From assembly GCF_000060345.1 (NCBI RefSeq), contig NC_008571.1, positions 3,538,501 to 3,602,500 of the forward strand: a DNA stretch of 64,000 nt. The letters run 5' to 3'. This document shows positions 299 through 11,865 of the stretch, one piece after another (the first letter of the stretch is position 1; the number at the start of each line of letters is the position of its first letter). Source of the stretch: Christiangramia forsetii KT0803. Its GTDB lineage: Bacteria > Bacteroidota > Bacteroidia > Flavobacteriales > Flavobacteriaceae. Below the pieces are notes generated by a model, which saw nothing but the letters and a program-made list of their open reading frames with translations, was not told the origin of the DNA and ran no database searches. A program made the translations under genes and the position numbers.

Positions 299-907
299 AT
301 GTCTTTTGAATTACCAAAATTAAAATATGCTTTTGATGCATTGGAGCCACATATAGATGCGAAAACTATGGAAATTCACCATGGTAAGCACCATGCGGGT
401 TATACTAAGAAACTAAATGCCGCAATCGAAGGAACCGATATGGATGGAAAAAATATCGAGAACATTTTGAAAAATCTTGATAAGTCTAATAAAGCAGTTC
501 GTAACAACGGTGGTGGATTTTACAATCACAGTTTATTCTGGGAAATTATGTCTCCTGATGGAGGTGGAAAGCCAGAAGGTGAACTTGCAAGCGCGATAGA
601 TGCTGCTTACGGTTCTTTTGAAGCTTTTAAGGAAGAATTTTCAAAAGCTGCGGCAGGACAGTTTGGTTCTGGATGGGCTTGGCTTTGTGTACATAACGGA
701 GGTAAAGTAGAAGTTTGCTCAACTCCAAATCAGGATAATCCACTTATGCCAGAAGTAGGTTGTGGTGGAGCTCCAATTTTAGGACTTGATGTTTGGGAAC
801 ATGCTTATTATTTAAATTATCAAAATAAGCGTCCAGAATATATTGATGCCTTCTTTAATGTAATAGACTGGAAAGAAGTTTCAAGTAGATATGCTAAGGC
901 AAAATAA
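299..907 (+). CDS. sodA: superoxide dismutase, manganese type
   Basis: The 202-residue protein is a full-length Fe/Mn superoxide dismutase that converts superoxide to oxygen and hydrogen peroxide. The four metal ligands are visible as H27, H77, D164 and H168, the last two inside the family signature DVWEHAYY. The second-sphere glutamine lies in the C-terminal half (Q145 in [10 protein letters not shown]) and the position before the second ligand is glycine-rich (GGGFYNHS). That is the arrangement of Mn enzymes rather than Fe enzymes. There is no signal peptide, so it is cytoplasmic. It is a single-gene unit with its own -7 element and terminator. Metal choice is inferred from sequence and could be cambialistic. 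Confidence 0.95.
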
Positions 908-986: not shown

Positions 987-1060
987 AAAAAAAGGCGGAA
1001 TAAATTCCACCTTTCTTTGCCCCAAATCTACCATGAACTTAACCTACTTATGCTATGGTA
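987..1060 (-). ncRNA. tandem small RNA gene, copy 1
   Basis: Read on the minus strand from 1060 to 987, this 74-nt unit has a 5' stem (TACCAT pairing with ATGGTA) closing a 20-nt loop, a linker GATTTGGGGC plus an A-run, and a 3' stem GGTGGAAT/ATTCCGCC ending in seven T. The 3' stem has a G-U wobble on the minus strand, where the plus strand would have a C-A mismatch, which fixes the strand. The unit recurs nearly identically at 1207-1282 and 1421-1494. It contains no plausible reading frame. It lies downstream of purF on the same strand, but each copy has its own promoter-like element, so I read it as an independent sRNA rather than a 3' UTR. Family unknown to me. Confidence 0.65.
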
Positions 1061-1063
1061 CAA

Positions 1064-1128
1064 TAAATATATATCGAATTATCTTCTGAAATTTAATTTT
1101 TAGACGAAATACCCAGATATTAGTTAAA
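1064..1128 (-). promoter_or_regulatory. promoter and upstream element of sRNA copy 1
   Basis: On the minus strand, TATATTTA occupies -11 to -4 relative to the first base of the RNA stem (1060 as +1). A conserved block ending in TCTA abuts -41, and the complement of ATTAGTTAAA occupies 1119-1128. The same three elements occur at the same offsets in the other two copies, although the sequence between them differs. Confidence 0.55.
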
Positions 1129-1206
1129 TAGCTGTTTTTTAGTTTTTTGAGTGTTTGATCGATTAATTTTCTGGTTATAACTAGTTGATACTTCATTTTA
1201 TGTCAT

Positions 1207-1282
1207 AAAAAAAGGCGGAATTAAAATTCCACCTTTTTTTGCCCCAAATCTACCATGAACTTAACCTACTTATGCTATGGTA
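1207..1282 (-). ncRNA. tandem small RNA gene, copy 2
   Basis: Second copy of the unit at 987-1060, read from 1282 to 1207. The 5' stem-loop is identical. The terminator stem is one base pair longer (GGTGGAATT/AATTCCGCC), which accounts for the two extra bases, and it keeps the G-U wobble that only pairs on the minus strand. The A/T extension is symmetric, so pairing is preserved. It ends in seven T. Confidence 0.65.
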
Positions 1283-1285
1283 TAT

Positions 1286-1350
1286 TAAAGATAATAAGAA
1301 TCTATCTTCGATTTTGTTTTTTTAGATGAAGTGCCTGTAAATTAGTTAAA
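1286..1350 (-). promoter_or_regulatory. promoter and upstream element of sRNA copy 2
   Basis: TATCTTTA at -11 to -4 relative to 1282, the block GCACTTCATCTA ending at the same -41 offset, and TTTAACTAAT at the same -59 to -68 offset as in the other two copies. Confidence 0.55.
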
Positions 1351-1420
1351 ATACTGAAATTCAAAAAAGTGAAAAATAATTAAGGGATATTTTGCTACAA
1401 ATTTGGAGTTGAGTAGAAAT

Positions 1421-1494
1421 AAAAAAAGGCGGAATAAATTCCACCTTTTTTTGCCCCAAATCTACCATGAACTTAACCTACTTATGTTATGGTA
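1421..1494 (-). ncRNA. tandem small RNA gene, copy 3
   Basis: Third copy, read from 1494 to 1421, and the one nearest the purF stop codon (79 bp away). It differs from copy 1 by single bases only: one in the loop, giving ACATAAG for GCATAAG, and one in the pyrimidine-rich linker. Both stems and the seven-T tail are kept. Start-to-start spacing between copies is about 212-222 bp. Confidence 0.65.
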
Positions 1495-1497
1495 TCA

Positions 1498-1562
1498 CTA
1501 AAGTATATAGAAATGAACAACGCACAAAGAATATTAGACCAAGTGCAGTTATATTAGTTAAA
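1498..1562 (-). promoter_or_regulatory. promoter and upstream element of sRNA copy 3
   Basis: TACTTTAG at the -7 position (one mismatch to TAnnTTTG), GCACTTGGTCTA ending at -41, and TTTAACTAAT at -59 to -68, all in the same phase as the other copies. A TTG also lies near the -33 position in this copy. Confidence 0.5.
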
Positions 1563-1572
1563 AGGTATAATT

Positions 1573-3471
1573 TTAATAAGCTCGTCCCTCTTTCCCTTCG
1601 AAAAAGTTCATAAATGCTCTATTTACAACCCGGTTACCTCCTGCAGTGGGATAGTTTCCGGTAAAATACCAATCACCGAGGTTTTTGGGACAGGCCAAAT
1701 GTAGATTATCTACCGTTTGATAAATAACTTTTACCTCTGCATTCACATCTTCATCACATAACAATTCTGAAATTTTATCAGAAATTTCTTCATCGGTAAA
1801 AGGATCATAAATTTCCTTTACAAAATTTTGAACATCCTTATCGTCCAGGTCTACCTGTTCTTTACATTTATTGTAAACTTTTTCTACAATGTCGTATTGG
1901 TTATTATCCTTTAAAAGTTCAAGAGCCGCTCTAAAAGCTACCAGACCTTCTAATCTGGCCATGTCTATTCCGTAACAATCTGGATATCTAATTTGTGGTG
2001 CAGAAGAAACTACTACGATCTTTTTAGGTTTTAACCTATCCATCATTTTAATGATACTCTTCTTTAAAGTAGTTCCCCTAACAATACTATCGTCTATAAT
2101 TACCAGATTGTCTTCTGGTTTTACCACACCATAAGTAACATCATAAACATGTGCAACCAAATCATCACGACTGCTGTCTTCAGTAATAAAAGTTCTAAGC
2201 TTTACGTCTTTGATGGCAATCTTCTCTGTCCTCAATCGGTGAGAAAGTATTTCCTGAAGTCTTGCATCGGTCAAGGTTTCCTTCTCCTCCAGGATAGCTT
2301 CATTTTTTTGCTTATTTAATTCATCCTGTGCAGCTTCCACCATTCCGTAGAAAGATGTTTCAGCTGTATTAGGGATAAAGGAAAAAACAGTTTTAAGGGT
2401 ATCGTGATTTATAGATTTTAAAACGTCTGGCATTAGAAGTCTACCCAGCATTTTTCGTTCTTCATAGATCTCAGCATCACTACCTCTGGAAAAATAAATT
2501 CGTTCAAAAGAACATGCTTTTCTTTCCAGTGGTTCTAAAATTTCTTTGATAGAAACATCACCATTTTTCTTGGTGATAATGGCATTTCCGGGAGGCAGTT
2601 CATGTACATCTTTAAAATCTACATTAAAAACCGTCTGTATTACCGGTCTTTCTGAAGCTACCACCACCACTTCATCATCTTTGTAATAATATGCAGGCCT
2701 AATGCCGGCGGGATCTCTAAGTACGAATGAATCTCCATGTCCAATCAAACCGGCCATTGCATAACCACCGTCCCAATCTTTGGAGGATTTTCTGAGGATC
2801 TTGGCAACATTTAGTTTTTCTGCTATTACCGGTGATGCTGTAACCTTTGAATACCCTTGCTTTTTTAGCTTCTTATATAACTTACGAACTTCATCATCCA
2901 GAAAGTGACCAATCTTTTCCATCACGGTAACCGTATCGGCTCTTTCTTTAGGATGCTGACCAAGCTCCACAAGATTATTGAAAAGCTTATTCACATTAGT
3001 CATATTAAAATTCCCGGCCACAATAAGATTACGATGCATCCAGTTGTTCTGTCTAAGAAATGGATGTACGCTTTCTATGCTGTTTTTCCCAAAAGTCCCG
3101 TATCTCACATGGCCTAAAAAGACCTCTCCCAGGTAGGGAATATATCTTTTTTGAAGCTCTGTGTCATCCGCATATTCGGGATTGGCTTTTATTTCATCAT
3201 TGATCCTTTCATTGATCTGCGCAAAAATATCCTGTATAGGTTGCGCCTGATTAGAACGAACCCTGCTTATATAGCGTTCTCCGGGTATTGTATTGAGTTT
3301 GATGCTTGCAAAACCAGCACCATCCTGCCCGCGGTTATGTTGCTTTTCCATCATCAGGTACATCTTATTTACACCATAAAATGCTGTACCATATTTTTCC
3401 TTATAATAATCAAGAGGTTTTAAAAGCCTTATATGTGCAATTCCGCATTCGTGTTTTAAAGCATCACTCAT
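1573..3471 (-). CDS. purF: amidophosphoribosyltransferase-type enzyme, long form
   Basis: The protein has an N-terminal class II glutamine amidotransferase domain and a C-terminal phosphoribosyltransferase domain, the layout of PurF, which makes 5-phosphoribosylamine from PRPP and glutamine in purine synthesis. Visible are C9 after a short leader (HECGIA), NRGQDGAG at 46-53, GHVRYGTFG at 120-128, DPAGIRP at 253-259 and the PRPP loop VIIDDSIVRGTT at 457-468. At 632 residues it is over 100 longer than typical PurF. Where PurF usually has HNGN, this protein has GNFNMTN (153-159), so the oxyanion-hole region differs. It may be a divergent paralogue rather than the main PurF. PurN lies in the same minus-strand cluster, which fits purine synthesis. 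Identity as the amidotransferase-PRTase family is firm; exact role less so. Confidence 0.85.
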   Translation of the reverse strand: MSDALKHECGIAHIRLLKPLDYYKEKYGTAFYGVNKMYLMMEKQHNRGQDGAGFASIKLNTIPGERYISRVRSNQAQPIQDIFAQINERINDEIKANPEYADDTELQKRYIPYLGEVFLGHVRYGTFGKNSIESVHPFLRQNNWMHRNLIVAGNFNMTNVNKLFNNLVELGQHPKERADTVTVMEKIGHFLDDEVRKLYKKLKKQGYSKVTASPVIAEKLNVAKILRKSSKDWDGGYAMAGLIGHGDSFVLRDPAGIRPAYYYKDDEVVVVASERPVIQTVFNVDFKDVHELPPGNAIITKKNGDVSIKEILEPLERKACSFERIYFSRGSDAEIYEERKMLGRLLMPDVLKSINHDTLKTVFSFIPNTAETSFYGMVEAAQDELNKQKNEAILEEKETLTDARLQEILSHRLRTEKIAIKDVKLRTFITEDSSRDDLVAHVYDVTYGVVKPEDNLVIIDDSIVRGTTLKKSIIKMMDRLKPKKIVVVSSAPQIRYPDCYGIDMARLEGLVAFRAALELLKDNNQYDIVEKVYNKCKEQVDLDDKDVQNFVKEIYDPFTDEEISDKISELLCDEDVNAEVKVIYQTVDNLHLACPKNLGDWYFTGNYPTAGGNRVVNRAFMNFFEGKEGRAY

Positions 3472-11698: not shown

Positions 11699-11772
11699 AC
11701 TTCATTTCCGAAGCCAAAGGCGCACCGGAAATGATTAGTTTCACTTATCCCGATGCAAGAGGGATCTTATGA
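11699..11772. repeat. 74-bp REP-like direct repeat, copy A
   Basis: First of two 74-bp direct copies; the second is at 11792-11865 with only a handful of mismatches. The core is palindromic: TCATTTCC pairs with GGAAATGA, and here GTGAAAC (11694-11700) and GTTTCAC (11738-11744) extend the stem. A second short stem, ATCCC/GGGAT, follows. Gene-free region 11682-12236 consists mainly of such elements. Confidence 0.75.
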
Positions 11773-11791
11773 ATGATAGGTTTGAATTTCT

Positions 11792-11865
11792 ACTTCATTT
11801 CCGAAGCCAAAGGCGCACCGATAATGATTAGTTTCACTTATCCCGATGCATGAGTGATTTTATGA
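11792..11865. repeat. 74-bp REP-like direct repeat, copy B
   Basis: Second direct copy of the element at 11699-11772. It keeps the central palindrome but lacks the outer GTGAAAC arm and has a degenerate second stem. Confidence 0.75.

Follow-up and report, generated by a model that had tools for sequence, protein, structure and literature searches.

Tandem small RNA genes between purF and sodA represent a new RNA family in Flavobacteriaceae with a candidate LytTR-type activator site

Three tandem copies of a small RNA (sRNA) gene reside between purF and sodA in Christiangramia forsetii, within the 64,000-nucleotide stretch of DNA analyzed in this study (hereafter the window). These copies belong to a new RNA family of a known kind of system, namely tandem multi-copy sRNAs under the control of an activator. 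That the units constitute an RNA gene family is highly probable, and the case is as strong as sequence comparison permits. We propose that each unit is a LytTR-activated, trans-acting sRNA that pairs with mRNAs through an invariant linker, and we assign this complete proposal a probability of roughly 0.55.

Members of the Flavobacteriaceae play a major part in degrading marine polysaccharides, and some are pathogens of fish; few of their regulatory RNAs have been characterized. The RNA described here occurs in more than 80% of the sampled genomes of the family and is absent from Rfam. It is probably a core regulator that is central to Flavobacteriaceae physiology. The distribution across the family, the fixed location between purF and sodA, and the direct-repeat nature of the upstream site are additions to an earlier note on this DNA that had drawn attention to the three units.

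The RNA units and their secondary structure

The three units are found on the minus strand at positions 987 to 1059 (copy 1, 73 nucleotides, with a U tail ending at 987), 1207 to 1281 (copy 2, 75 nucleotides), and 1421 to 1493 (copy 3, 73 nucleotides, adjoining purF). The starts of successive units are separated by 222 and 212 nucleotides. A covariance model made from 40 homologues, including the three window copies, scores copies 1, 2, and 3 at 106.2, 103.1, and 100.8 bits, which agrees with the earlier placement of three minus-strand units at these locations. The bounds need a small revision, because the predicted first base lies one base inside each unit as originally drawn. This base is predicted to be the purine of ACCAU (A1059 for copy 1, 1281 for copy 2, and 1493 for copy 3), based on the spacing of the flavobacterial -7 box, which is described at -12 to -5 (PMC9723704), and on a conserved purine at body position 2. 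No second repeat of the sRNA type is present in the window, and the lone other repeat of 40 or more nucleotides is unrelated.

Each unit opens with a 5' hairpin, continues through an unpaired linker (AGAUUUGGGGCAAA), and ends with an intrinsic terminator that has a U tail. The 5' stem-loop and terminator recognized earlier were recovered upon folding all three copies, which yield minimum free energies of -22.9 to -24.1 kcal/mol and z scores of -3.9 to -5.1 relative to dinucleotide shuffles. For every copy, at most 1 of 200 shuffles matches the native stability. Both the U-G pair noted in the terminator stem and the longer stem of copy 2, which is extended by one pair, are real.

A covariance-model search of flavobacterial genomes had been proposed as a check, with the possibility that the stem would not covary. 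The terminator stem does covary. In an alignment of 122 distinct members, which was fitted to the model and is hence biased towards it, standard pairs make up 96.7% of the pair cells, 10 of the 11 pairs in the terminator show two-sided changes, and covariation is scored at 0.298, versus 0.140 for shuffled data and at most 0.086 for slid structures. An independent MAFFT alignment of 40 members has two-sided changes at 5 pairs. The 5' hairpin gives no compensatory proof because it has almost no variation, and what there is consists mainly of A-U/G-U swaps; two-sided compensatory changes in this hairpin are absent among the aligned members. The body upstream of the terminator hardly differs between genera, and the RNA carries about 45 nearly invariant bases.

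The RNA is encoded on the minus strand, as is fixed by the excess of G-U over A-C combinations. Family-wide, there are 165 G-U cells versus 2 A-C cells, and the RNA strand pairs in 96.7% of cells versus 90.6% for its complement. The preference for RNA pairing on this strand, which was originally noted from the window copies, is also seen across the family. A hidden peptide starting at AUGGUAGAU was considered but set aside, as many genera have a 1-nucleotide insertion in the linker that changes the reading frame while the bases are kept.

Distribution and genomic location

By the covariance model, the RNA is found in 242 of 299 sampled Flavobacteriaceae genomes, representing 195 of 236 genera, and in 215 of the 249 genomes of good quality. 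There are 1 to 7 copies per genome. When copy 1 is used as a query, homologues are identified in all of the sampled genus relatives (23 of 23), with 2 to 5 copies each. A collection of 202 copies in 86 loci has a weakest score of 50.8 bits. Exact matches to a 20-base core occur in Flavobacterium, Maribacter, Zobellia, Aquimarina, Winogradskyella, and Salegentibacter, among others. Strong matches beyond Flavobacteriaceae are lacking in 296 phylum-wide genomes, where the best scores (about 31 to 36 bits) are at the level of terminators. The family was not recognized in the earlier note, and a scan of the window against Rfam 15 likewise returned 0 matches at gathering thresholds; the best sub-threshold matches are driven by the terminators.

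Both neighbors of the array are conserved. The purF gene (1573 to 3471, minus strand), which codes for amidophosphoribosyltransferase, is located upstream, and the convergent sodA gene (299 to 907, plus strand) codes for an Fe/Mn superoxide dismutase. Of 118 loci collected with the exact 20-base core, 97 have purF as the near upstream neighbor in the same orientation, and 87 have a superoxide dismutase gene pointing towards the array. The arrays are usually tandem and located between these two genes, and a mobile repeat is ruled out because of this fixed site. The natural reading would be vertical inheritance at one locus accompanied by local duplication. Some arrays also contain decayed, pseudogene-like copies in which the loop or stem is changed (L100:1154-1228 and L103:1918-1990).

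The promoter and candidate activator site

Across 398 distinct units, a TAnnTTTG-like box is located at -11 to -4 from body position 1. The window examples occupy positions 1064 to 1071 (TATATTTA, copy 1), 1286 to 1293 (TATCTTTA, copy 2), and 1498 to 1505 (TACTTTAG, copy 3, where an overlapping ATACTTTA reading is possible), all on the minus strand. A special sigma factor had been offered as one explanation for this element, but it corresponds to the ordinary -7 box of flavobacterial sigma-A, TAnnTTTG (PMC9723704). No general -33 box is evident across the upstream regions compared. A -33-like TTTG is present only for copy 3 (1525 to 1528, minus strand). Among genus copies nearest purF, TTTG is located at -34 in 16 of 24, and it does not recur there in the other 49 copies.

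Two half-sites conforming to GCnTTYRTCtAA are located farther upstream in these 398 units, the distal one at -72 to -60 and the proximal one at -52 to -40. In the window, the proximal and distal half-sites (all minus strand) are found at 1099 to 1113 (GGTATTTCGTCTAAA) and 1119 to 1133 (AGCTATTTAACTAAT) for copy 1, at 1321 to 1335 (GGCACTTCATCTAAA) and 1341 to 1355 (AGTATTTTAACTAAT) for copy 2, and at 1533 to 1547 (TGCACTTGGTCTAAT) and 1553 to 1567 (TACCTTTTAACTAAT) for copy 3, the last of which lies 5 nucleotides beyond the purF stop codon. A strict word test on 358 distinct upstream regions, from which the variant class described below was left out, finds both GCnTTYRTC halves in 165 regions, versus 0.05 expected from shuffles. 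The upstream elements reported earlier are thus real and phase-locked. However, the element 'TTTAACTAAT' and the block ending in TCTA, which had been listed separately, are the two halves of one direct repeat.

LytTR regulators recognize repeats of 9 to 11 nucleotides with 11 to 13 nucleotides between them, and the Escherichia coli LytTR regulator YpdB binds direct repeats of GGCATTTCAT (PMC4847170). The flavobacterial half-site GCATTTCATC is almost identical to this repeat. The promoters also have a LytTR-type layout, wherein two spaced direct repeats are located above the core promoter; the best second half-site match is 20 to 22 base pairs away in 285 of 358 upstream regions. Because repeat length, spacing, and word all resemble LytTR or YpdB sites, a LytTR-type regulator is the likely activator of the sRNA copies. 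AraC-type regulators could use similar repeat spacing.

With a -7 box in fixed phase and a covarying, T-tailed intrinsic terminator, each unit has the sequence characteristics of an independently transcribed sRNA. These features support the earlier view that the copies would be three separately promoted, co-regulated sRNA genes, each with a bipartite activator site.

A search for the regulon of the activator was unproductive, as the phase-locked promoter pattern gave three non-sRNA matches versus three in the control, and the count for the repeat alone equaled that of its control. The genes for secreted proteins that were encountered are leads only. One perfect sRNA promoter pattern, again among counts at control level, precedes a gene for a large secreted Ig-like, adhesin-type protein (G000:C1:473899-473963; L291/L297). 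The promoter layout, with TATACTTTTG in phase, also precedes a gene for a secreted thioredoxin-like protein (G000:C1:1143747-1143811; L294/L308).

A variant class is found in the Maribacter-Zobellia group, where 36 distinct upstream regions belong to copies whose linker is GATTTGGGACGAAAA or a close variant. GGGACG is present in 33 of these variant units. The repeats are missing from 34 of the 36 upstream regions, and TTTG is located near -33 in 56%. This pattern suggests subfunctionalization inside one array.

The linker as a candidate seed

The linker is unpaired in the predicted fold. In the most divergent homologues, L076, L077, and L079, the loop and arms of the hairpin drift while ATTTGGGGCA is kept. 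Because it is both unpaired and retained despite this drift, the linker is the likely seed, and we give slightly better than even odds to base pairing with mRNA through this region. The strongly diverged L079 copy (L079:1501-1575), which adjoins purF, has a different loop but retains both repeats (ACCGTTCATCGA and GCATTTCATCTAA) as well as the linker ATTTGGGGC.

The linker complement, CCCAAATCT, was searched in six genomes of the genus, and 139 matches were examined in context. Sites of the form YCCCAAATCT recur in the genus in the leaders of tsaE, of a gene for a LuxR-type regulator, and of a lipoprotein gene adjacent to the regulator gene. In the latter two leaders, the site stays though its flanks have diverged in some species. 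The predicted linker-leader duplexes range from -13.6 to -20.3 kcal/mol. Raw counts of CCCAAATCT in the six genomes are only moderately above the reversed control, and the three genus-level sites are best treated as leads only. Their recurrence, which was noted without a control search, could instead be explained by transcription-factor sites or by inherited conservation of the leaders. At G000:C1:2184364 (the lipoprotein gene) and 2185620 (L370 and L371), CCCAAATCT in the lipoprotein and regulator leaders is near the palindromes GGTGAAATCACC and GGGGAATTCCCC, which may be operators.

A conserved target across the family was not found in these searches. The tsaE site does not extend beyond the genus, which eliminates it as a family-wide target, and the start regions of susC genes, as compared by eye, have no common complementarity. 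A search of the C. forsetii genome for long antisense sites (16- and 20-nucleotide complements, at most 3 mismatches) yielded nothing beyond the array and chance, and the reversed 16-mer control outnumbers the real matches (59/42 versus 17/16).

Alternative explanations

The earlier note recognized that the copies might be only terminators of longer purF transcripts. This appears to be partly correct for the copy adjoining purF. In 53 of 57 loci, the distance from the purF stop to the start of the first copy is 74 to 143 nucleotides, and the interval contains a terminator-like signal in only 1 of 57. Because there is no other terminator between them, the purF transcript probably ends within the first copy, and copy 3 of the window probably doubles as the purF terminator. 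However, every copy, including the distal ones, has its own phase-locked -7 box, most have the repeats, and a body that is near-invariant across genera is not needed by a terminator. It is therefore very improbable that the units are merely terminators or 3'-UTR segments that yield no separate RNAs. A function that relies mainly on binding or titrating a protein, either as a CsrB-like sponge or as a ligand for an RRM protein, is a more credible although still unlikely option. Multiple copies would fit titration, as would the invariant hairpin sequence and the failure to find a family-wide target, and the FopS sRNAs of Bacteroides bind the RRM protein RbpB (PMC11697453). On the other hand, no motif is repeated within one RNA, and the linker persists in divergent homologues whose loop changes.

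The RNA might also correspond to a transcript that has already been reported. Rfp18 of Flavobacterium psychrophilum is, like the present RNA, a conserved, structured flavobacterial sRNA; it is conserved across Flavobacterium and expressed in Flavobacterium columnare (PMC9723704). The family described here does occur in genus Flavobacterium, and an RNA with at least three stem-loops, as reported for Rfp18 (PMC9723704), could be two tandem copies. Rfp18 pairs via its third stem-loop whereas a single unit here has two, although the RNAs were compared by description only. We consider identity with Rfp18, or with another conserved Rfp transcript, to be improbable. That the RNA belongs to the FopS/GibS family of Bacteroides as a divergent representative is still more doubtful. 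FopS (RF04319) is the best sub-threshold Rfam match from Bacteroidetes (20 to 21 bits), and the two RNAs have UUCAUGG and UAGAUUU in common. However, the covariance score of 20.4 to 21.1 bits is far under the gathering score of 56, and shuffled sequences are as similar in 68 of 5000 and 47 of 1000 trials, so that neither result supports membership. Moreover, the 5' region of FopS is single-stranded, carries the R1' seed, and lacks such a hairpin (PMC11697453), whereas the predicted 5' end here is within the hairpin. Intermediates between Bacteroides FopS and the Flavobacteriaceae RNA were absent from the phylum sample.

Relationship to known systems

FopS is nevertheless a close parallel in organization, being a multi-copy RNA of Bacteroidota of about 65 to 75 nucleotides with a conserved seed followed by an intrinsic terminator (RF04319; PMC11697453). 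There are 12 to 15 FopS copies per genome, which are expressed from canonical promoters, and those of Bacteroides thetaiotaomicron include 9 intergenic, 4 antisense, and 1 3'-UTR-derived copy (PMC11697453). Unlike FopS, the RNA described here begins with a hairpin, is encoded at one tandem locus, and lies behind a direct-repeat activator site.

Multi-copy sRNAs under two-component control include Qrr (LuxO), the csRNAs (CiaR), and LhrC (LisR). These also form dosage banks of near-identical copies, each with its own activator site, but they come from other phyla, answer to other regulator families, and are compared here by layout. RNAIII (AgrA) and VR-RNA (VirR) are regulatory RNAs located behind direct-repeat LytTR sites, but each is a longer, single-copy RNA from Gram-positive bacteria, in contrast to the bank of short sRNAs here.

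Proposed mechanism

In the LytTR-activated sRNA proposal, each unit would be an independent gene whose product, a trans-acting sRNA of 73 to 75 nucleotides, belongs to a family that spans Flavobacteriaceae and is uncatalogued. A LytTR-type response regulator would bind two direct half-sites (GCnTTYRTC) that are 20 to 22 base pairs apart and centered near -46 and -66, and would recruit sigma-A RNA polymerase to the TAnnTTTG -7 box. The RNA would begin at the ACCAU purine, fold its sequence-invariant 5' hairpin, expose AGAUUUGGGGCAAA, and stop at the intrinsic terminator, with tandem copies raising the dosage. The linker seed might then pair with YCCCAAAUCU-type sites in mRNA leaders, probably altering translation or stability.

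A broader picture, to which we give somewhat less than even odds, is that the purF-sodA array is a tandem dosage bank for a family-wide core sRNA that would relay a LytTR two-component signal to many mRNAs via one invariant seed in the linker. One copy in the Maribacter-Zobellia group would have diverged from the rest, with a promoter of its own and a changed linker, GGGACGAAAA.

Elsewhere in the window, a 74-nucleotide non-coding sequence is tandemly duplicated at 11699 to 11865 with 93% identity and 93-nucleotide spacing. This duplication lies immediately past the start of a minus-strand gene that resembles DNA polymerase IV.
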